From the IMG/VR virus record IMGVR_UViG_3300011114_000026, positions 1 through 26,059 of that record: 26,059 bases of DNA; one strand, given 5' to 3'. The DNA is from a virus. The notes beneath the pieces were generated by a model. It saw only the letters and a program-made list of their open reading frames with translations, made no database searches and was not told the origin of the DNA. The position numbers were made by a program, and so were the translations under genes. Within the stretch, counting starts at the first letter, position 1, and the number at the start of each line of letters is the position of its first letter. Below, in pieces: positions 2,154 to 24,750 of this stretch.

Positions 2154-4220
2154 ATGGCAACAAATAAAGAAGTCAAACTTGAACAAAATGAGTTTTATGA
2201 GCCTACTGAGGCTGATAAAGAACTGACAGATTTTGTTACTAGCCACTGCGACAAGTGGCGTGACTACAGAGACACTAACTTTCTCCCTGATTGGCTGGAA
2301 TACGAACGTATCTTCCGTGGTCAATGGGCATCTGAAGACAAAACCCGTGAGTCTGAACGCAGCCGAATCGTAACTCCTGCTACTCAACAAGCAGTCGAGA
2401 CTCGTCACGCTGAAATTATGGAAGCAATCTTTGGTCAAGGTGACTTCTTTGACATTGAAGACAATATCCAAGATGTAAACGGGAATCCTATTGATGTTGA
2501 AATAATTAAGAATCAACTCGTTGAGGACTTCAAGAAAGACAAAATCAGAAAAGCTATCGACCAGATCGAATTGATGGCTGAAATCTATGGAACAGGCATA
2601 GGCGAAATTGTTGTCAAGACTGAAAAAGAGTATGTTCCCTCAACTCGACCTATTCCTAATCAGCAGGGTCAGGCAGCTATTGGTGTGATGGAGCGAGACA
2701 GAATTTCTGTCAAGATCATGCCTGTCAACCCCAAGAACTTCTTGTTTGACCCTAACGGTACAAGCATTGATGACTGTATGGGCGTGGCTATTGAAAAATA
2801 CGTTTCAATTCATAAGGTTGTGCAGGGTATTGAGCGTGGAATCTACCGTAAGGTAGACATTGGTACTGCCAGTGAAGACACTGACCTAGAACCAACTCAA
2901 GAAGTAAGCCAGTATCAGGATGAAAAGGTTCTTTTGTTGACCTACTATGGGTTAGTTCCCCGTGAGTACCTCAACAACATGAAAGAGAACAAGGATATTG
3001 TTGAATTGTTCCCTGAAAACTCAGCAGCAGAAGACTACACCGACATGGTTGAGGCCATTGTTGTGATTGCCAATGATGGGATGCTCTTAAAGGCTGAAGA
3101 AAATCCATATATGATGAAAGACAGGCCAGTTCTGTCTTACCAAGACGATACTGTGCCAAATCGCTTGCTTGGTCGTGGTACGGTGGAAAAAGCATTCAAT
3201 ATGCAAAAGGCCATTGATGCTCAGACTCGCAGCCACTTGGATTCACTGGCACTGAGTACCTCTCCCATGATGGCAATGGATGCAACACGCTTGCCCCGCG
3301 GTATGAAGTTTGAGGTAAAGCCCGGAAAAGCTATTCTGGTCAATGGTTCTCCTAGCGAGATTCTCTTTCCATTCAAGTTTGGAGCAACTGACCCAAATAA
3401 TCTTGCAACTGCCAAAGACTTTGAGCGAATGTTGCTACAAGCAACAGGAACTCTAGACTCTAACGGCATGATTAGCCAAGCTAGTCGTGATGGTGGTGGT
3501 ATGTCGATGGCGGTTGCCTCCATCATCAAGAAATACAAGCGTACCTTGGTGAACTTCCAAGAAGATTTCTTGATTCCATTTATCAAAAAGGCTGCTTTCA
3601 GGTTTATGCAGTTTGATCCAGAGCGTTATCCCTCTGTTGATATGAACTTCATCCCTACTGCAACCCTTGGCATCATTGCTAGAGAGTATGAACAGCAGCA
3701 ATTCATTGGTTTGTTGCAGACTTTGGGTGCAAATACTCCTGTTTTGCCTATTTTGCTTAAAGGAATCGTTGGAAACAGCAGTTTGTCTAACCGCATGGAG
3801 TTAATGGCTAAGTTAGATGAGATGATGCAGCCTGATCCACAAGCACAACAGATGCAGCAAGTGCAACAGCAGTTGGCTATGCAAGCAGCACAAGCAAATA
3901 TTGCAGTTCAGACCACTCAAGCAGAACAAAATCGGGCTGAAGCACAGAAATTGTCGGTTGAGACTCAGTTGATGCCTATGGAAATACAGGCAAAAACTAT
4001 GGCTGCAACCACCAAGAACCTACCCAATGACGCAGATCAAGCCTCAAAAGAGTTTGATAAGAGGGTTAAAATTGCTGAATTGATGCTTAAAGAAGCTGAT
4101 ATAAAGAATAAGTCTAAGATTGTTGAATTGCAGATGAATAATGCAAAAAGCAATGTTGTTGATTTAGAGAATGAATTCTTACAGAAATTAAATACGGAGT
4201 TGTCAAATGGAACTAGATAA
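2154..4220 (+). CDS. Portal protein (head-tail connector ring)
   Basis: A 688-residue protein with the features of podovirus portals. The N-terminus reads CDKWRDYRDTNFLPDWLEYERIFRG and is followed by SERSRIVTPATQQAVETRHAEI, the usual start of this portal family. The middle contains VNPKNFLFDP, a typical portal wing/stem region block, and RLLGRGTVEKAFNMQKAIDAQ. The last ~150 residues are very rich in Gln and Ala and then become a charged helix, which fits a C-terminal helical barrel. Portals form the dodecameric ring at one capsid vertex through which DNA enters and leaves. Its place upstream of scaffold and major capsid genes fits the usual order. The next gene starts inside its last codons (14-nt overlap). 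The identification rests on recognised family pattern and gene order. Confidence 0.9.
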   Translation: MATNKEVKLEQNEFYEPTEADKELTDFVTSHCDKWRDYRDTNFLPDWLEYERIFRGQWASEDKTRESERSRIVTPATQQAVETRHAEIMEAIFGQGDFFDIEDNIQDVNGNPIDVEIIKNQLVEDFKKDKIRKAIDQIELMAEIYGTGIGEIVVKTEKEYVPSTRPIPNQQGQAAIGVMERDRISVKIMPVNPKNFLFDPNGTSIDDCMGVAIEKYVSIHKVVQGIERGIYRKVDIGTASEDTDLEPTQEVSQYQDEKVLLLTYYGLVPREYLNNMKENKDIVELFPENSAAEDYTDMVEAIVVIANDGMLLKAEENPYMMKDRPVLSYQDDTVPNRLLGRGTVEKAFNMQKAIDAQTRSHLDSLALSTSPMMAMDATRLPRGMKFEVKPGKAILVNGSPSEILFPFKFGATDPNNLATAKDFERMLLQATGTLDSNGMISQASRDGGGMSMAVASIIKKYKRTLVNFQEDFLIPFIKKAAFRFMQFDPERYPSVDMNFIPTATLGIIAREYEQQQFIGLLQTLGANTPVLPILLKGIVGNSSLSNRMELMAKLDEMMQPDPQAQQMQQVQQQLAMQAAQANIAVQTTQAEQNRAEAQKLSVETQLMPMEIQAKTMAATTKNLPNDADQASKEFDKRVKIAELMLKEADIKNKSKIVELQMNNAKSNVVDLENEFLQKLNTELSNGTR

Positions 4221-6165
4221 AGTTTTTAAAAAAGACGGCGTAGACGGCGTAGCTGATGATTTATTTGCGTCTATTAACAATTCAGTTTCTGAAGTTAAGC
4301 AGATGCAACAGCGTAAGGCTGCTGAGAATGTTCAGACAGTAATACAAGCCTTAAAGAAAATTGAAACTAACATCCAAGATAAGTATGACAACGTAACCGA
4401 TGTAATTGTAAAACGGGTATCGACTATCAAAGATGGTCGTGACGGTAAGAATGGAAGCGATGGGCGTAATGGTCGTGACGGTAAAGACGGTCGTGATGGC
4501 AAAGATGGTAAGCAAGGCTTGCAAGGCGTACAAGGCAAAGACGGTGAAGATGGTATTGATGGCGTATCGGTTACAAACGCAAACATTGACTTTGATGGTT
4601 CTTTGATTATTGCTTTGTCTGATGGTCGAGAAGTAAATGTTGGTGAAGTTGTTGCTCCTGACCTTGCTGAACGCATCAAAGTTATCAGCACTATGTCTAC
4701 CAATGGGGCGGTGGGCGTTAAGGATGAGGGAACTTCAATCTCTACGGGTGTTAAGAATATTAATTTTGTTGGTGCAACTGTTACTGCTACAAATTCAGGA
4801 GATGATGTAACCGTTAACGTAAGTGCTGGAACTGGAACAGTCACAAGTGTGGCAGCAACAGTCCCTGCATTCTTGTCTATTACTGGCTCTCCTGTTACAA
4901 CAACAGGCACATTGGCAATTGGATTATCAGGTACTGCATTGCCAGTGGCTAATGGTGGTACTGGAGTTACGACAAGTACAGGAACAACAAATGTTGTATT
5001 GTCAAACTCGCCAACCTTGGTGACTCCTGCACTTGGTACACCGTCTGCATTGGTTGGTACAAACATTACAGGCACTGCAACAGCTTTTAACATTAACGGC
5101 ACTGTTGGCGCAACAACTCCTGCGTCTGGAGCATTTACTTCAGTTACGGCATCTACAACGCTTACGGTTACGGGTGCTGGATCAATCCAAGGACTCACCG
5201 TAGGACGAGGTGCTGGTGCTGTTGCTAGCAACACTGCGGTGGGTGTAAGTGCATTGGAGGGAAATACAACAGGTGCTTCTGGATTAGCCATTGGTTACCA
5301 AGCCCTCCAAGCCAACACCACAGCATCAAACAACACTGCTGTAGGTTATCAAACAGGTTACTCTAATACAACAGGTGCAAGTAACTTCTTCGGTGGCTAC
5401 CAAGCAGGCTACAGCAACACATCTGGCGGTACAAGCGTGGCTCTTGGCTATCGTGCCGCATACAGCAACCTAGTATCAGGAAGTTTTACAGCCGTTGGCG
5501 CTGAAGCTGGTTACAGCTATGTGGGCGGGTCAGAGTCAAATGGCTCTGTTGCTGTTGGAATTCAAGCCGCCCGAGCCGCCACAAGTGCAAATGATTTTGT
5601 CTATATTGGCGCAGAGGCAGGACGATTAACCACCACTGGTGGAAACAACGTGGGCATAGGAAGTGTTGCGCTGTACAACAACACGACTGGTGGTAGTAAT
5701 GTTGCAATAGGTAGGGCGGCACTTCAAGCCAACACCACAGCCTCTAACAACACTGCTGTAGGGTATCAGGCGGGGTATACGAACACTACTGGTATCGCCA
5801 ATACTTTTTTTGGCTATCAAGCTGGATATGGCAACACCACAGGCCAAGCCAATACTTTTGTTGGCTATCAATCAGGTAACGGAGTAACTACAGGTTCTAA
5901 CAACACTATTATTGGTCGTTACTCTGGCTCTGCCGCACCCATCTCTGCTACTGGTAGCAACTACATTGTGCTGTCTGATGGTGATGGTAATGTCAGAGCA
6001 TATTGGAATGGTTCTATTGCAATTTTTAACGGAACAATTTCTCCTGTTCAAGCAACAACAGCGGCAGCACCAGCCTACGTTAAAGGGGCAATGTATTTTG
6101 ATACCACGCTTAACAAACTACGCATTGGCGGTGCTACAGCTTGGGAAACCGTCACTTCTGTTTAA
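4207..6165 (+). CDS. Collagen-like and YadA-head-like repeat fibre protein
   Basis: A 652-residue fibrous protein. Residues 1-75 form a charged helical N-terminus. Residues 77-119 have Gly at every third position without a break (15 Gly-X-Y triplets, mostly GRD/GKD/GKN), a collagen-like triple helix. After a beta-rich linker (SVAATVPAFLSITGSP, VANGGTGVTT, common in phage fibres) residues ~335-600 carry many short repeats such as NTAVGYQTGYSNTTGAS and NTFFGYQAGYGNTTGQA, which resemble the left-handed beta-roll repeats of trimeric YadA/haemagglutinin heads. The C-terminus (KGAMYFDTTLNKLRIGGATAWETV) is a common phage-fibre end. The product is very likely a homotrimeric fibre that binds host surface or other material. 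It is encoded between portal and scaffold, away from the second fibre at 13056, so it may be a head or neck fibre (inference). Confidence 0.82.
   Translation: MELDKVFKKDGVDGVADDLFASINNSVSEVKQMQQRKAAENVQTVIQALKKIETNIQDKYDNVTDVIVKRVSTIKDGRDGKNGSDGRNGRDGKDGRDGKDGKQGLQGVQGKDGEDGIDGVSVTNANIDFDGSLIIALSDGREVNVGEVVAPDLAERIKVISTMSTNGAVGVKDEGTSISTGVKNINFVGATVTATNSGDDVTVNVSAGTGTVTSVAATVPAFLSITGSPVTTTGTLAIGLSGTALPVANGGTGVTTSTGTTNVVLSNSPTLVTPALGTPSALVGTNITGTATAFNINGTVGATTPASGAFTSVTASTTLTVTGAGSIQGLTVGRGAGAVASNTAVGVSALEGNTTGASGLAIGYQALQANTTASNNTAVGYQTGYSNTTGASNFFGGYQAGYSNTSGGTSVALGYRAAYSNLVSGSFTAVGAEAGYSYVGGSESNGSVAVGIQAARAATSANDFVYIGAEAGRLTTTGGNNVGIGSVALYNNTTGGSNVAIGRAALQANTTASNNTAVGYQAGYTNTTGIANTFFGYQAGYGNTTGQANTFVGYQSGNGVTTGSNNTIIGRYSGSAAPISATGSNYIVLSDGDGNVRAYWNGSIAIFNGTISPVQATTAAAPAYVKGAMYFDTTLNKLRIGGATAWETVTSV
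5301..5785 (+). repeat. Internal direct repeats in the fibre gene
   Basis: About 60 nt beginning near 5305 recur, with a few third-position differences, near 5722. Both encode the same series: AL(Q)ANTTASNNTAVGYQ followed by G-Y-x-NTT-G. Shorter degenerate copies (GYQAGY-NTT-G units) fill the space between and continue to about 5900. The differences fall mainly at synonymous sites, so selection has kept the repeated protein pattern; recombination between copies could change fibre length. Confidence 0.75.
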
Positions 6166-18454: not shown

Positions 18455-20716
18455 ATGGCAGCGACTTATGAAGAAGTAATGCAAGCTCTGCGTAAAGCTG
18501 ATGCTGAAGGTAATCAAGAAGATGCTCGTAGACTGGCAAAGATTGCTCGCTCTATAAAAGAATCAAGTGCATCTAATGTTAGTCAAGCAAGTTCCTCTAA
18601 CATTCCGCAAAATAAAATTGTTGAAACAGAATCTCCTAGTTTTCTAAATCAAATGTTTGGCTTAGGTTCTCCAACATATAGTTTACTAAGAGGAGCAGTA
18701 ATTCAACCAGCATTAGGTGTAAATGAATTATTAGCAAAAACTGGTTTGTTTGGTCAAGACATTAAACAAGGAGCATCTGCTCTTGTTAGACAAGAACAAG
18801 CTGCTTATGAAAAAGGCAGAGCAGCCGTTGGTCGAGAGGGGATAGATGTTCCTGAAATAACAGGAGCAATATTTTCTCCAGTTAACAAATTAGTGCCATC
18901 TAGTACTGGTGGTTTAATTGAAAGAGGCATAACTGCAGCAGGTGGTGGAGCAATTCAAGGAGGATTGAGTCCTAGTGGCAAAGAAGATGGTTCTTATGTC
19001 TCAGATAAATTGTTTAACATGGGATTAGGTGCTGTGATTGGTGGAGTTATTCCTCCAACAATAAAAACTTTATCTTATATAAAAGATCAGTTAATCAACT
19101 TGCCTATTACGGCTGCAAATAAAGAAACTGCGGCACGAAGATACATTGAATCTTTAGTTGGAGATGAAAAAAAACAGGTAATTTCTGCTTTAAGAAATGC
19201 TGGTGAAATTGTTTCTGGCAGTAAACCAACAACTGCTGAAGCACTAGTAGGTACTCCAACAGCAATAGGACTTGTAAAAGAACAGCAAAGACTTGCAAGC
19301 CAAGTTCGTACACAACCGCAATTTGCACAAAGAGGGCAAGCACAAGCGGCGGCTCGTAAACAAGAGTTAGTAAGTCAATTTGGCACTGAGGCAGACTTAG
19401 CGGCAGCAGAGGCAGCAAGAACAGCAGAGACTGCTCCATTACGTCAAACAGCACTTGAGCAAGCAAATGTCTATGGTCAGGTTGTTCCTGCATTAGAGTC
19501 TGACATAGCAGCAAGACAAGCTGCTGTAGTGCAGAATCTTCAAGCGCAAGGCAAAACAGCTACAGAAGAAGCACAAGCATTGCTCCGATCAAATACTGGA
19601 ATGGGAGGCGGTCAAATATCGCAAATTGCAGGGATGCCAATGAAGTTTCCAGATAGATACATGGGAAATTACAACCTTGCTAAGAGCCTATCTACTGCCA
19701 CTCAAGAATTTGCAGACCCTATTGCACAAAGGAAAGCAGAACTTGCGTTTAAAAAGTTGCAATTGCAAAGTGTTTCAGACGAGGGTTTCTATCCTCTTAC
19801 TATTCAGCCAATCATTGGGAAAATAGACGATAGTCTTAGTCGTGTTGGAGATAGGTCAAATACATTGCTTGTTAATTCACTTCAAGGATTACGCACAAAA
19901 TTAGCAAATCTTGCTGATGAAAATGGCATTATTAATAGCGTTGATTTATACAATGTGCGTAAAGAAATTGGCAGTGATATCAAGTCTTTTTTGACACAAA
20001 GAAATGAACCATTTGGAGCGCAAGCTACCAATGTAGAAACATCTATTAAAAAGATTCTTGATAAATCCATTAATGATGCGTCTGGAACTCAAATTTGGTC
20101 TGATTATTTATCAAAATTTGCTGACCATAGTAAGAAAATTAATCAAATGAAAGTTGGTCAAGAACTGATTGACAAATTAAGTTTGAATTTGACTGATGTT
20201 GAAAAAGCTGGAAAATTTGCTTCAGCCGTTGACAACTCAGCCACTTTGATTAAAAGAACTACTGGTGTTCAGAGATATGAAAAGCTATCTGACTTCCTTA
20301 CGCCCGAACAAATTAAATCTGTTGAAAGTGTTCGTGCTGATTTAGCAAGATCACAAAAAGCAATTGAGATGGGTAGAAGCGTTAAATCAATAGGAGAAGA
20401 GGCATTTGCTGGTGGTGAAAAAGTCCCAGGAATGATTAGCAGTAAGATAACAATTCTCAAATCTGTTTTAGATACATTGAAAACAGGAAGTCAAAAGCAA
20501 TTAGATTCAAAAATGACTGAGCTTATGCTTGACCCGCAAAAATTGGCAGACTTCTTAGAGGTTATGCCAAAGAAACAATCTTCATTGATTACAAGTTCTT
20601 TGATGGCAAAGATGAGTCCTGAAATGCAACAAACATTTCGAGAATTTGTATCTGCCTCTACGCCAACACAAACTCAACTTACCCGTGGAACTATTTCTCA
20701 AATCACAAGAAATTAA
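18455..20716 (+). CDS. Putative internal virion / ejection protein, large
   Basis: A 753-residue protein. Residues 1-34 (YEEVMQALRKADAEGNQEDA then RRLAKIARSI) match the short helical module often found at the N-terminus of phage internal virion proteins. Residues ~65-215 are rich in Gly, Ala and hydrophobic residues (SLLRGAVIQPALGVNELLAKTG; LGAVIGGVIPPTIKTL), suggesting membrane interaction. SKPTTAEALVGTPTAIGLVKEQ is a block seen in similar phage proteins. The rest is mainly Ala/Gln/Lys helices. No catalytic residues were recognised. With the two preceding genes it probably forms the ejectosome that passes DNA through the Gram-negative envelope (inference). Confidence 0.72.
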   Translation: MAATYEEVMQALRKADAEGNQEDARRLAKIARSIKESSASNVSQASSSNIPQNKIVETESPSFLNQMFGLGSPTYSLLRGAVIQPALGVNELLAKTGLFGQDIKQGASALVRQEQAAYEKGRAAVGREGIDVPEITGAIFSPVNKLVPSSTGGLIERGITAAGGGAIQGGLSPSGKEDGSYVSDKLFNMGLGAVIGGVIPPTIKTLSYIKDQLINLPITAANKETAARRYIESLVGDEKKQVISALRNAGEIVSGSKPTTAEALVGTPTAIGLVKEQQRLASQVRTQPQFAQRGQAQAAARKQELVSQFGTEADLAAAEAARTAETAPLRQTALEQANVYGQVVPALESDIAARQAAVVQNLQAQGKTATEEAQALLRSNTGMGGGQISQIAGMPMKFPDRYMGNYNLAKSLSTATQEFADPIAQRKAELAFKKLQLQSVSDEGFYPLTIQPIIGKIDDSLSRVGDRSNTLLVNSLQGLRTKLANLADENGIINSVDLYNVRKEIGSDIKSFLTQRNEPFGAQATNVETSIKKILDKSINDASGTQIWSDYLSKFADHSKKINQMKVGQELIDKLSLNLTDVEKAGKFASAVDNSATLIKRTTGVQRYEKLSDFLTPEQIKSVESVRADLARSQKAIEMGRSVKSIGEEAFAGGEKVPGMISSKITILKSVLDTLKTGSQKQLDSKMTELMLDPQKLADFLEVMPKKQSSLITSSLMAKMSPEMQQTFREFVSASTPTQTQLTRGTISQITRN

Positions 20717-20725
20717 GGACACAAA

Positions 20726-21433
20726 ATTGATCCGATCAGCCTACTCTTTGCCGCCAATGCTTGCGTTGCCGCCATCAAAGAGGGTTGTGAGCTTTACAAA
20801 CAGGCAAAGACTTCCTTTATGGAGGTCAAGTCTACTGTTGACGAAGCAGTCAAGATTGGAAAAGAAGTACAAGGCTTTTGGGGAAAACTCTCCAAAATGT
20901 TTGGTGGTAAGCCAGCAACAGTTGCCACCACCTCCACGCCCAAGTCTGTGGCGAAAAAGAAAGAGAAATTCGTTGCCGTTGACGAAACTCAAGTCAAGGT
21001 CAATATTGTCAAACAACTCACTGAATTTTTCCGTCTTCAAGAGCAACTCGCTGCTCACATAAGGGAGGAAGAAGAAAAGTCCAGAAGCGTTTACGATCCT
21101 GACCAAAACCACATGGAAGCCGCCTTAAATAGGGTTATGGCTCAACAGCAGATGGCTGAGTTGGTAGTTCAGATTCGTGAATGTATGGTGTACCAATCGC
21201 CTCCAGAAATGGGTGCGCTGTACTCTGAAGTGTTTGAAATGAGGGAAGTCATTCAACAGGAGCAAGAACAAGCCAGATTGAAGCAGGAAGCAAAAGAGAG
21301 GTACAAAGAATGGCAACGGCAGGAGGCAAAAAGAAATCTGCAAGCCAAGTCAGCGTATCTAGTAGTAACAGGAATATTCCTCCTGTATATATGGATGTGG
21401 CTCGTGTTCGTAAGCCAGTGGAGGAAGATATAG
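20726..21433 (+). CDS. Amphipathic membrane protein, apparent ATT start
   Basis: From the first in-frame ATG (20819) the product has 204 residues. The same frame continues upstream to a stop at 20714, and the extra codons read IDPISLLFAANACVAAIKEG then CELYKQAKTSF, a natural N-terminus for this protein type. No ATG, GTG or TTG exists in that stretch in this frame. An ATT at 20726 lies 6 nt after AAGGA (20715-20719), and no similar ribosome site precedes 20819. The likely product is 235 residues. It has an amphipathic N-terminus, charged helices in the middle (FRLQEQLAAHIREEEEKS; a Glu/Gln/Lys coiled coil near 160-200) and a C-terminal transmembrane helix (AYLVVTGIFLLYIWMWLVFV). The function is unknown. 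The last 124 nt overlap the next gene in another frame. Confidence 0.75.
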   Translation: MDPISLLFAANACVAAIKEGCELYKQAKTSFMEVKSTVDEAVKIGKEVQGFWGKLSKMFGGKPATVATTSTPKSVAKKKEKFVAVDETQVKVNIVKQLTEFFRLQEQLAAHIREEEEKSRSVYDPDQNHMEAALNRVMAQQQMAELVVQIRECMVYQSPPEMGALYSEVFEMREVIQQEQEQARLKQEAKERYKEWQRQEAKRNLQAKSAYLVVTGIFLLYIWMWLVFVSQWRKI

Positions 21434-21597
21434 TGGGTTGGATTGCTGCTTGTATTCTGATTGCCTTGTTACTGCCGATCATGGGGTTTCTTTACCTTGA
21501 TATTCTTGAGACAAAGCATGAGGCTAAGGCTCAGGTTGAAAAGGTAGAGAAGTTGAGACAGAAAGTTGAGCAACAGCAAAGGGAGAAAGATAAATGA
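21310..21597 (+). CDS. Single-pass membrane protein overlapping the previous gene
   Basis: A 95-residue protein in a different frame from the preceding gene. It has a polar, Lys/Ser-rich N-terminus (MATAGGKKKSASQVS, then NIPPVYMDVARVRKPVEED), one transmembrane helix (IVGWIAACILIALLLPIMGFLYL) and a C-terminal coiled coil (AKAQVEKVEKLRQKVEQQQ). The ATG at 21310 is preceded by GAGAGG with 8-nt spacing; an internal ATG at 21391 has no such site. The N-in topology with a long C-terminal coiled coil resembles an inner-membrane spanin or holin-associated protein, but a separate Rz/Rz1 pair is present, so the role is open. The stop overlaps an ATG at 21594 (see the insertion entry). Confidence 0.72.
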   Translation: MATAGGKKKSASQVSVSSSNRNIPPVYMDVARVRKPVEEDIVGWIAACILIALLLPIMGFLYLDILETKHEAKAQVEKVEKLRQKVEQQQREKDK

Positions 21598-22106
21598 AAG
21601 TTTAATAATGAGAAAAAACAGATTTTGCACATTCTTCATATTTCATACTTGCTTCTAGTGCAGTATCAAATACTCCCAAATGAATTGTTTTGTAATTATG
21701 TTGAATCTGTGCCACAAATTTGTTTAATCTTTTATTAAAAGTCACTCCTTTATAACCTGTTGAATTATTTTTTTGCTTTCCTCTGTGCTCATTGTTTTGT
21801 TTTGTTGTAACTTCTCTAAGATTGGAAAAGTGGTTGTTTGATTTGTTACCATCAATGTGATCTAAAAAAAGTTTTGGAAATGAACCTGTTTCAAAAAACC
21901 AAACAAGATGATGGGCTGGATATTTCCTCCCGTATGCTTGTATATATCTGTATCCTTTTGGAGTCAATGCGCCAGCTATTGATCCAACTTTTATTTTTGG
22001 TCGTTTCTTTTTTTGCAAAATATTTCCAGTTATTTGATCGTAAAAAAATAACTCGTGGAATATTGAAGATGAATTTTTCATGTGATTATTATGGAGGGTA
22101 TAGAGT
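21598..22106. mobile_element. Putative homing-endonuclease insertion in the lysis cassette
   Basis: About 509 nt carrying one reverse-oriented HNH gene interrupts an otherwise tightly overlapping + strand gene chain. On the left, the stop of the 21310 gene overlaps an ATG (21594-21596) in the usual ATGA manner, but that frame ends after three codons (M-K-V-stop). On the right, the lipoprotein gene starts ATG-AAG with a ribosome site (GGAGG, 22092-22097) lying inside the inserted DNA. The segment is A+T-rich compared with its flanks. The precise ends are inferred. Confidence 0.6.
21602..22081 (-). CDS. HNH homing-type endonuclease with C-terminal AP2-like domain
   Basis: A 159-residue protein. 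The frame is open further upstream, but the start at 22081 is chosen because this length aligns residue for residue with the second HNH protein (24244-24750): DHIDGNK lies at residues 74-80 in both and the G-x-KGV block at 109-113 in both. The catalytic region reads AHHLVWFFETG, DHIDGNKSNNHFSNLREVT; the histidine pair, DH and Asn are the expected HNH metal and catalytic residues. The C-terminus (STGYKGVTFNKRLNKFVAQI then HLGVFDTALEASMKYE) is an AP2-like DNA-binding domain. Such enzymes cut unoccupied alleles and spread their own genes. It is the only - strand gene within the late region and may be expressed separately. No strong ribosome site was seen. Confidence 0.88.
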   Translation of the reverse strand: MKNSSSIFHELFFYDQITGNILQKKKRPKIKVGSIAGALTPKGYRYIQAYGRKYPAHHLVWFFETGSFPKLFLDHIDGNKSNNHFSNLREVTTKQNNEHRGKQKNNSTGYKGVTFNKRLNKFVAQIQHNYKTIHLGVFDTALEASMKYEECAKSVFSHY

Positions 22107-22289
22107 ATGAAGTCAAGACTTTTAATATGTGTTTTATTTTTAATTTCTTTATCTGCTTGTGAGGATAGATTTAGATATAAATGCCAAGACCCTAAGAATT
22201 GGCAGAATGAAGAATGCAAACCGCCAATCTGTACCGCTACAGGTACTTGTCCTGACCAACTTGTTAAACCCGAACAGGAGAAAAAGTGA
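22107..22289 (+). CDS. Small cysteine-rich lipoprotein
   Basis: A 60-residue protein with a lipoprotein signal: MKSRLLICVLFLISLSAC, lipobox LSAC with lipidated Cys18. The mature part is short and rich in Cys (Cys18, then YKCQDP, EECKPPICTATGTC), suggesting disulphide bonds in the periplasm. The ribosome site is GGAGG about 10 nt upstream. It opens the lysis cassette and overlaps the holin-like gene (TGATG). It may be an accessory lysis or superinfection-exclusion lipoprotein; the function is not known to me. Confidence 0.8.
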   Translation: MKSRLLICVLFLISLSACEDRFRYKCQDPKNWQNEECKPPICTATGTCPDQLVKPEQEKK

Positions 22290-22609
22290 TGCCAACAATC
22301 GTAATGAACAAAAATACTCGCATGACTTCTGACGAAATTGAAGTCAGAATTTGGGCAATCGTAATCTTTTCCTTGACCCTGATTCTTCTTGGATCGGTAG
22401 CAATGTTCCTTTACAGCGTCAGCTTTGTAACTCAGCCAATGTCAGGCATGGCAGCAATTGACAAGATTTACACGCAGCAAATCAACACAATTATGGTGTT
22501 CATTACTGGTGTTCTTGGTGGTGTTGCTGGTCGTTCTGGTGTCAAAGCAATAGCTACTGCGACATCAAAGGCTGAAGTTGTTGACAATGATGAGCCGCCT
22601 AAGCCATGA
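22289..22609 (+). CDS. Holin-like membrane protein
   Basis: A 106-residue protein with two predicted transmembrane segments: IWAIVIFSLTLILLGSVAMF (about residues 24-43) and TIMVFITGVLGGVAGRSGVK (about 68-87), with a charged, Pro-ending C-terminus. A GTG at 22286 would add one codon, but the ATG at 22289 overlaps the preceding stop as TGATG and lies 8 nt after AGGAG. Two-helix topology, size and a place just before Rz and the endolysin fit a class II holin, which opens the inner membrane at lysis. The stop overlaps the Rz start (ATGA). Confidence 0.78.
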   Translation: MPTIVMNKNTRMTSDEIEVRIWAIVIFSLTLILLGSVAMFLYSVSFVTQPMSGMAAIDKIYTQQINTIMVFITGVLGGVAGRSGVKAIATATSKAEVVDNDEPPKP

Positions 22610-23091
22610 GTCTGTTTAATCCTTGGGTAATTTTGGGTATCTTGATCGCCATTGGCTCTGCCTTTGGCGGTGGATACTCTAAGGGTAAACACGATGAGTT
22701 TACTAAACAACAGCTTCAGATTGCTGCTTTGAATGCAGATGCTCGACAAAAGGAACAGGCACTGGTTTCTGCTGTGAATACTCAATCTAACCAACTGATG
22801 AAAGCCAATCAAAATGCTAAACTTTTACAACAAAAGCGCAATACTGATATTGACAGTGGTGCTCTCAAGTTGCGGATCGCTGTCAAAGCCTCCGGTTGCC
22901 CCGTACAAGCCTCCTCAGATGCCCCCGTTACCAGCGGAGATAACTCAGGAAGTGCATCAGCCGAACTTGACCCAGAGACTTCTAAAGCTCTTATCGCCAT
23001 CACAGACGAAGGAGATGCCGCCATCAGAAAACTCGCAACCTGTGTCTCCCTCTACAACGAAGCCCTCCAAACCTTGAAAGGAAAACCATGA
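22606..23091 (+). CDS. Rz: Inner-membrane spanin (Rz-like)
   Basis: A 161-residue protein with an N-terminal transmembrane anchor (NPWVILGILIAIGSAFGGGY, residues ~5-24), then a periplasmic helical domain (KHDEFTKQQLQIAALNADAR, NTQSNQLMKANQNAKLLQQK) and a C-terminal region with Cys98 and Cys152 or so (ASGCPVQA; KLATCVSLYNEALQTLKG). This is the i-spanin layout. A lipoprotein gene (Rz1-like) lies entirely inside it in the +1-shifted frame. Spanins join inner and outer membrane and complete lysis of Gram-negative hosts. It overlaps the holin-like gene by 4 nt and the endolysin gene by 4 nt. Confidence 0.88.
   Translation: MSLFNPWVILGILIAIGSAFGGGYSKGKHDEFTKQQLQIAALNADARQKEQALVSAVNTQSNQLMKANQNAKLLQQKRNTDIDSGALKLRIAVKASGCPVQASSDAPVTSGDNSGSASAELDPETSKALIAITDEGDAAIRKLATCVSLYNEALQTLKGKP
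22814..23077 (+). CDS. Rz1: Outer-membrane spanin lipoprotein (Rz1-like), embedded in Rz
   Basis: An 87-residue protein in a different frame from Rz and wholly inside it. It has a signal peptide (KSAILILTVVLSSC) with lipobox LSSC and lipidated Cys20. The mature part is rich in Pro (PPVAPYKPPQMPPLP), the hallmark of Rz1-type o-spanins. The embedded arrangement is the lambda-type one. The ATG at 22814 has weak upstream purines (AAAGCCAATCAAA), so it may depend on translation of Rz. The mature o-spanin would bind the C-terminal part of Rz in the periplasm. Confidence 0.85.
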   Translation: MLNFYNKSAILILTVVLSSCGSLSKPPVAPYKPPQMPPLPAEITQEVHQPNLTQRLLKLLSPSQTKEMPPSENSQPVSPSTTKPSKP

Positions 23092-24002: not shown

Positions 24003-24251
24003 TCAAAAAGGCGCATCGCTTTCCATATCCTCAATTTTCTTTGAAGGTTGTTTTTCAGAAACATAAGACTCATCTTTAGGGCTAACTGCTAGTCCCATGA
24101 ACTTACCGTTCTTACCCTCTTTTATCCATCCAGAAATCCAATAATTGTTTCCATCAACAACTATAGACCCGCGATAATCAGGGTGATTGGGTTTCTCTTT
24201 GCGATCTGATTTAAACAAAACGCCACTATTATTTCTCTGATTTTCATCCAT
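24003..24251 (-). CDS. Small conserved phage protein, replication region
   Basis: An 82-residue protein: NSGVLFKSDRKEKPNHPDYR, GSIVVDGNNYWISGWIKEGKNGKFMGLAVSP (split here for length: VDGNNYWISGWIKEG and GKFMGLAVSPKDE), and an acidic C-terminus EDMESDAPF. The core (GALFKN-RK--PNHPDY-G----DG--YW--AW-KE-KNGK--LAV) is widespread in phages and resembles small OB- or DUF736-like proteins. The acidic end with a terminal Phe is reminiscent of the C-terminal tips of single-stranded-DNA-binding proteins; that is a suggestion only. Its first 8 nt overlap the HNH gene. A 56-nt gap without an obvious promoter separates it from the next gene. Confidence 0.78.
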   Translation of the reverse strand: MDENQRNNSGVLFKSDRKEKPNHPDYRGSIVVDGNNYWISGWIKEGKNGKFMGLAVSPKDESYVSEKQPSKKIEDMESDAPF

Positions 24252-24750
24252 GTAACACTCCTTTGTATGCCGAAAATTGTTTGTGCAACTTGTTTGTTGC
24301 CTCCATTGCTACTAACTCTGCTAGTTCTTTGTCTTCAAAAATTCCACAATAATGAGACTTGTAATTTTTACAAACAGAAACTACCCATTTTTTATTAGCT
24401 TTGTGCCATGACACTCCTTTAACGCCTGAAGAATTAGTTAATCGAACCTTTTGGTTTTGGCAATTTTCTTGTTTACTTGCCTCCCTCAAATTTTCAATTC
24501 GATTGTTTAATTTGTTTCCATCAATGTGGTCAATGAGTTCAGGCAAATATCCATTGTGATACAAGAAAACCAATCGATGTGCCTTAAATGGTTTAGCTTT
24601 TATCTTGATATGGACATAACCTGTTCCCTTGTGAATACAGCCAGCAACAGAGCCAATTTCACCTTTTCTGCCAATCTTGCGAATCAATTGACCATCTTGA
24701 TAATCAAATGCAGAAAGAACATACTCTTGGCTAATCTGTAGCTGTTCCAT
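24244..24750 (-). CDS. HNH homing-type endonuclease with C-terminal AP2-like domain (second copy)
   Basis: A 168-residue protein. The HNH region reads KAHRLVFLYHNG, IDHIDGNKLNNRIENLREAS; His58, Asp74-His75, Asn79 and Asn82 are in the family places. The C-terminus (SSGVKGVSWHKANKKWVVSV, then HYCGIFEDKELAELVAMEA) is AP2-like DNA-binding. It is collinear with the HNH protein at 21602-22081, so the two are related copies. Unlike that one, it is in the same direction as its neighbours. It starts 2 nt after the exonuclease stop, with AAGGTG at the end of that gene as ribosome site, and its last codons carry AAGGAG for the following gene, so it is smoothly inserted in the early operon. Confidence 0.9.
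   Translation of the reverse strand: MEQLQISQEYVLSAFDYQDGQLIRKIGRKGEIGSVAGCIHKGTGYVHIKIKAKPFKAHRLVFLYHNGYLPELIDHIDGNKLNNRIENLREASKQENCQNQKVRLTNSSGVKGVSWHKANKKWVVSVCKNYKSHYCGIFEDKELAELVAMEATNKLHKQFSAYKGVLHG

Follow-up and report, generated by a model that had tools for sequence, protein, structure and literature searches.

A conserved ATTG start site in freshwater phages that probably opens two overlapping genes in different reading frames

The DNA considered here (the window) is the whole of a 26-kb virus record, 26,059 nucleotides in length. Between the gene for a 753-residue protein and the lysis genes lies a gene, here called frame 0, at whose beginning two candidate start codons in different frames fall within a few bases of each other behind one ribosome-binding site (AAGGA). 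The codons are ATT and an out-of-frame TTG, which have two bases in common inside the tetranucleotide ATTG. The features of the locus are as follows.

20714-20716, plus strand: TAA stop codon of the upstream gene (18455-20716), seen in the sequence.
20715-20719, plus strand: AAGGA, Shine-Dalgarno-like, overlapping the upstream stop codon, 6 nt from the ATT and 7 nt from the TTG.
20726-20728, plus strand: ATT, start codon of frame 0; homologous starts are ATT, GTG or ATA, and ATG in a sister subfamily.
20727-20729, plus strand: TTG, proposed start codon of the +1 frame; ATTG or ATGTG occurs here in 148 of 148 loci with an open +1 frame.
20726-21433, plus strand: frame-0 gene, 235 codons, an open frame whose product has an all-helical model and a hydrophobic C-terminal segment.
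20727-21062, plus strand: overlapping +1 open reading frame (ORF) for a very basic product of 111 residues, closed by TAA at 21060-21062 and marked by stop avoidance and +1 conservation (alignment A2).
20937-20963, plus strand: conserved +1 peptide R-P-S-L-W-R-K-R-K, lying over the frame-0 codons for T-P-K-S-V-A-K-K-K.
21310-21597, plus strand: downstream gene, used as a control, with an ordinary ATG; it overlaps the 3' end of the frame-0 gene.

The structural model of the frame-0 protein is helical (pLDDT 69), and its C-terminus includes a hydrophobic stretch; sequence and model together make a C-terminal membrane segment plausible. The protein has no match in Pfam and only weak matches to PHROGs of unknown function, none of them confident. 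Comparison of the model with folds in the PDB gave no informative match, and its matches among viral structures are uncharacterised proteins of uncultured phages. A search for relatives among genome contigs found none, and the portal protein shows no more than distant similarity to those of Roseobacter, Pelagibacter, Vibrio and Aeromonas phages. Further along the plus strand, 22606-23091 encodes an Rz-like inner spanin, with matches to spanin PHROGs, and nested within it in another frame is an ORF (22814-23077, plus strand) with a start resembling a lipobox (VVLSSCGS), the arrangement of Rz/Rz1 pairs. Two minus-strand ORFs, 21602-22219 and 24244-24750, contain HNH-endonuclease-like text (DHIDGNKSNN and DHIDGNKLNN, respectively), the former placed after the dual-start gene cluster and before the lysis genes. 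The 652-residue protein encoded at 4207-6165 (plus strand) carries collagen-like G-x-x repeats (DGRDGKNGSDGRNGRDGKDG) and is probably a tail fibre.

A preliminary description of this DNA had proposed the ATT as the start codon of the membrane protein gene. Its placement of the TAA, the AAGGA, the 6-nt spacer and the ATT is correct throughout. Frame 0 remains open from the ATT as far as 21433. Its first ATG falls at codon 32 (20819), and no ATG, GTG, TTG or CTG lies in frame between the ATT and this codon; a start at 20819 would leave a gap of 102 nt (20717-20818), as had been pointed out. The interpretation held in taking the ATT for a real start codon, and it overlooked the out-of-frame TTG that opens an overlapping ORF. 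The deliberately poor translation or IF3 sensitivity that it suggested may hold, but would not account for the pattern of start codons.

Homologues bear directly on the start. Scanning viral contigs yielded 502 confirmed relatives, of which 80 were kept, and further scans added more. Of the 177 distinct homologous starts compared, 118 have ATT at the homologous position, 54 have GTG and one has ATA, while the sequence upstream of these starts is unrelated between loci. A sister subfamily has a plain ATG at the same residue (33 loci in the combined table); ATG is never found there within the window's own subfamily. The proposed ATT is thus strongly supported by the 118 homologues that share it, and the many independent contigs exclude the sequencing error or missing ATG that had been named as its main alternative.

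The more conventional possibility is that the gene starts at the ATG at 20819, the first standard start in frame, with the 31 codons upstream left untranslated. However, codons 2-31 are conserved as protein while their third bases vary, as the alignment suggested in the preliminary description now reveals, and homologues start at the position of the ATT with ATT, GTG or ATG. None begins at the methionine of 20819, which itself gives way to V, G, Q or S in 16 of the 113 ATT members that are complete. Any standard start at all within codons 2-31 is found in just 14 of the 118 ATT members. A start at 20819 is refuted by the homologues and retains next to no probability. Nor does the out-of-frame TTG serve as the sole start: position 0 is A in 118 of 118 ATT loci and G in 54 of 54 GTG loci, so that the frame-0 codon must itself matter. 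On the evidence of the family, the gene begins at the ATT, and the start position is family-wide. Other genes of these phages start with ATG, the next one downstream doing so in 92 of 96 loci. In two homologues (L081:3001-3726 and L082:2998-3690, from MW202484 and MW202462), the deposited start is an internal ATG some 21-27 bases downstream of the homologous GTG, and the main gene is truncated in the public records.

The GTG loci share another feature. In all 54, AT precedes the GTG, creating an ATGTG with an out-of-frame ATG, just as ATTG contains an out-of-frame TTG. The frame that these second codons would open, one base later than frame 0, stays open over some 75-125 codons in most relatives. 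Across 58 representatives, 52 stops were seen in the +1 frame over codons 0-90, against 104 +/- 6 expected from synonymous shuffles retaining composition and local codon usage; after codon 90 the counts agree (492 seen, 481 expected). The deficit is traceable to particular codon contexts. Within codons 1-98, Val, Ile and Leu codons with a final A have their normal frequency if C or T follows and are almost absent if A or G follows; GTG is found ahead of G and not ahead of A. This avoidance is gone after codon 110.

Could the open frame be a by-product of amino-acid composition and codon usage? Proteins rich in K, E and A often have open alternative frames, neighbouring loci share ancestry, and stops in the +2 frame are also mildly below the local shuffle over codons 0-90 (346 vs 412). 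Yet 70 of 82 representatives lack a +1 stop over 70 codons, against 29.3 +/- 3.2 in shuffles that keep composition. The effect is also context-specific, vanishes after codon 110, and is accompanied by a motif constrained in the +1 frame. In 72 disjoint sister pairs, picked regardless of +1 openness, the synonymous changes at sites at risk that create or destroy a +1 stop number 6 out of 101 in codons 1-98, compared with 48 out of 145 further downstream (p=1.2e-7). The local shuffles, the context tables and the disjoint sister pairs, one run of which was not conditioned on openness, each speak against an artefact of codon usage, and this explanation was rejected as very improbable. The second frame is more open than frame 0 predicts, the pattern looked for in overprinting, and these comparisons indicate that it is kept open under selection.

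Where the +1 frame begins can be narrowed down. At codon 4, ATA is used before A in 0 of 49 cases and otherwise in 11 of 42 (p=9e-5); codon 4 lies upstream of the internal +1 ATG, which sits at codon 11, and a start at the ATTG/ATGTG site is therefore favoured. The window's own +1 frame extends open beyond the TTG in the upstream direction, where a TTG and a GTG occur 14 and 27 codons away. The exact +1 start is therefore judged from the relatives; in 96 of 172 ATT/GTG loci there is no other +1 start upstream.

The +1 products are 97-126 residues long among the representatives analysed, with a median pI of about 12. They match no known family in the databases searched, and they are predicted to be largely disordered. 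Selection on them is seen at codons 73-78 of frame 0, which read S-L-W-R-K-R in the +1 frame and are practically frozen (CCT in 55 of 55, GTG in 58 of 59, GCG in 56 of 63). Over codons 71-81, synonymous differences fall to 0.56 of expectation in +1-open genes, as opposed to 1.03 in +1-closed genes; as a positive control, the overlap with the downstream gene lowers synonymous variation to 0.80 at codons 195-232. The nucleotide motif is present in 80 of 120 +1-open genes and in none of 12 closed ones, where it is missing even if frame 0 still reads KPVAKK. Variants of the motif are mostly silent in the +1 frame, including those that change frame 0 from V to L, K to Q or K to A, although this comparison was sampled on WRKR and the silence is partly conditional on that choice. 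Codons 2-60 display no excess synonymous constraint (0.99), so that the bulk of the +1 protein is kept open but is free to change, and strong constraint over the whole product was rejected on the same value. Purifying selection on the +1 amino acids, as judged from synonymous variation, is confined to SLWRKR at codons 71-81. One may speculate that a basic, disordered protein with a short motif binds nucleic acid or a partner protein. At the end of this frame in the window (21060-21069, plus strand), the +1 TAA is followed directly by GGGAGGA, a strong Shine-Dalgarno-like sequence inside frame 0, with no start codon found after it at a suitable spacing.

The motif also bears on a different use of the +1 frame, in which translation starts only at the TTG or ATG in +1 and then shifts by -1 near CGA-AAA-AGA to yield a single fusion protein with an arbitrary N-terminus. 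Nucleotide conservation and a run of A at the motif would suit such a shift, as would an N-terminal +1 part that is open yet unconstrained. However, motif variants break the A-run (GCGCAAGCGG) while retaining WRKR, which disfavours a frameshift at this run. Stop avoidance extends beyond the motif, to positions 85, 94, 95 and 98, and frame-0 codons 2-31 are conserved as protein. Moreover, the frame-0 ATT or GTG is invariant in +1-open loci, and an ATG takes its place in the sister clade. A shift of this kind is accordingly very improbable.

The type of start codon and the state of the +1 frame are closely coupled. In a table of 235 distinct loci, in which the frame was called open with at least 70 codons and closed with fewer than 35, each of the 148 open loci has either ATTG (101) or ATGTG (47), with no other start. 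The 75 closed loci are more varied: ATG in 33, ATTG in 17, GTG without the preceding AT in 12, GTG one codon upstream in nine, and ATGTG, TTG, ATA and ATG-ATT once each. The other 12 loci have 35-69 open codons. On the protein tree, ATTG and ATGTG have switched about 12 times, and no other configuration appears where the +1 frame is open. Shared ancestry limits such tree-based tests of association; the independent-pairs sign test of start type against openness had too few informative pairs for significance, whereas the stop-avoidance test is built on disjoint pairs. The 17 closed loci that retain ATTG imply that ATT can be kept or gained without a +1 ORF, and the association is thus one-directional. 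Five loci (L243, L265, L207, L099 and L126) retain the ATT start with a +1 frame that closes after three codons, and these have no overlapping gene.

The sequences preceding the two types of site differ as well. A Shine-Dalgarno-like 4-mer lies 3-12 nt from the ATT in 91 of 101 +1-open ATTG loci, and in 22 of the 101 the ATT is directly preceded by an in-frame stop codon. A good Shine-Dalgarno sequence is found in only 17 of 47 ATGTG loci, and 14 of the 47 have a TGATG or TAATG stop overlap. Weak codons behind a strong Shine-Dalgarno sequence, and a strong codon behind a weak one, would be expected if both frames need to be translated.

An alternative view of the ATT is that it is simply a weak start for dosage control, whereby the amount of membrane protein is limited by ATT, or by GTG in competition with an out-of-frame ATG, possibly through IF3, the +1 ORF being incidental. 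Starts at AUU are weak and IF3-sensitive, as in infC. The ATT persists in some lineages with a closed +1 frame, and the downstream genes use ATG. In Yersinia pestis, AUU is the functional start of RcsD-Hpt, and its replacement by AUG raised RcsD-Hpt function (PMC10191623). Dosage control would leave unexplained, however, why +1 stops are avoided over about 98 codons, why SLWRKR is conserved in that frame and why an open +1 frame is coupled to ATTG or ATGTG in 148 of 148 loci, and sister phages use ATG freely at the same place. The absence of ATG in the subfamily, the AT before every GTG and the open +1 frame together point to more than a weak start, and dosage control as the whole explanation is unlikely.

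Several known systems resemble parts of this arrangement. The lambda S gene encodes a holin and an antiholin from two starts. It is comparable to the present gene in having two close start codons in a phage gene near the lysis genes, but the lambda starts are in the same frame and those of the window are in different frames. With infC and RcsD-Hpt, the phage site shares an AUU behind a Shine-Dalgarno sequence as a functional start, its use in the phage being predicted; no second frame is known at their starts, and the IF3 autoregulation of infC is not implied for the phage. Closer to the present case, E. coli ribosomes at an AUGUG start in both frames, with a split that depends on the spacing of the Shine-Dalgarno sequence (Kohl et al. 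2022, PMC9841429). Ambiguous AUGUG or GUGUG starts are described for E. coli pqiA, tamA and narQ, and Thermus rnpA-rpmH (AUGGAUG) is named as the sole earlier bacterial case (PMC9841429). The E. coli sites likewise have overlapping out-of-frame starts at one ribosome-binding site, and the ATGTG members of the phage family are identical in sequence to AUGUG. In contrast, the phage site is conserved family-wide, selection acts on its overlapping frame, and the site in the window is AUUG, composed of AUU and UUG, AUU being absent from the text of PMC9841429. In Thermus, too, two genes in different frames are served by one site and one Shine-Dalgarno sequence, and the pair is co-expressed; there, however, two AUG codons are used, where the phage has a non-canonical AUU and a UUG with two bases in common; the proteins are also unrelated.

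Dual-frame starts at AUGUG in E. coli, combined with AUU as a working start, lead to the proposal of one Shine-Dalgarno sequence and two starts. Under this proposal, TAAGGACACAAAATTGATCC would be an ambiguous initiation site at which a single Shine-Dalgarno sequence positions initiator tRNA for either frame. Placed on the ATT, the tRNA would start the 235-residue helical protein with its C-terminal membrane anchor; placed on the TTG, one base later, it would start the 111-residue basic SLWRKR protein that ends at 21062. ATGTG would play the same role in the sister phages, its ATG serving the +1 frame and its GTG frame 0. ATT would then be retained over ATG because ATGG leaves the +1 gene without a start codon. 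UUG may be used more than AUU. Translation of both frames from one site, and importance of both products for the phage, are suggested by the conservation patterns described above, and it is likely that TAAGGACACAAAATTGATCC starts two out-of-frame genes in this manner. It also seems likely that AUUG serves a large group of freshwater phages as a conserved ambiguous start, where it would co-produce two proteins and swap repeatedly with AUGUG, never giving way to a single-frame start while the +1 gene is kept. The conserved AUUG version in phages appears to be new as far as the literature could be found.

Automatic annotation fails at this site, the +1 gene being missed and the main gene truncated, as in MW202484 and MW202462. 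The locus also raises a testable point, namely how the initiator tRNA chooses AUU or UUG and what part IF3 plays in that choice. If the proposed reading is true, it would explain by selection why a phage gene begins with ATT, and would supply evolutionary evidence that an ambiguous start has been maintained so that one ribosome-binding site can express two out-of-frame proteins.
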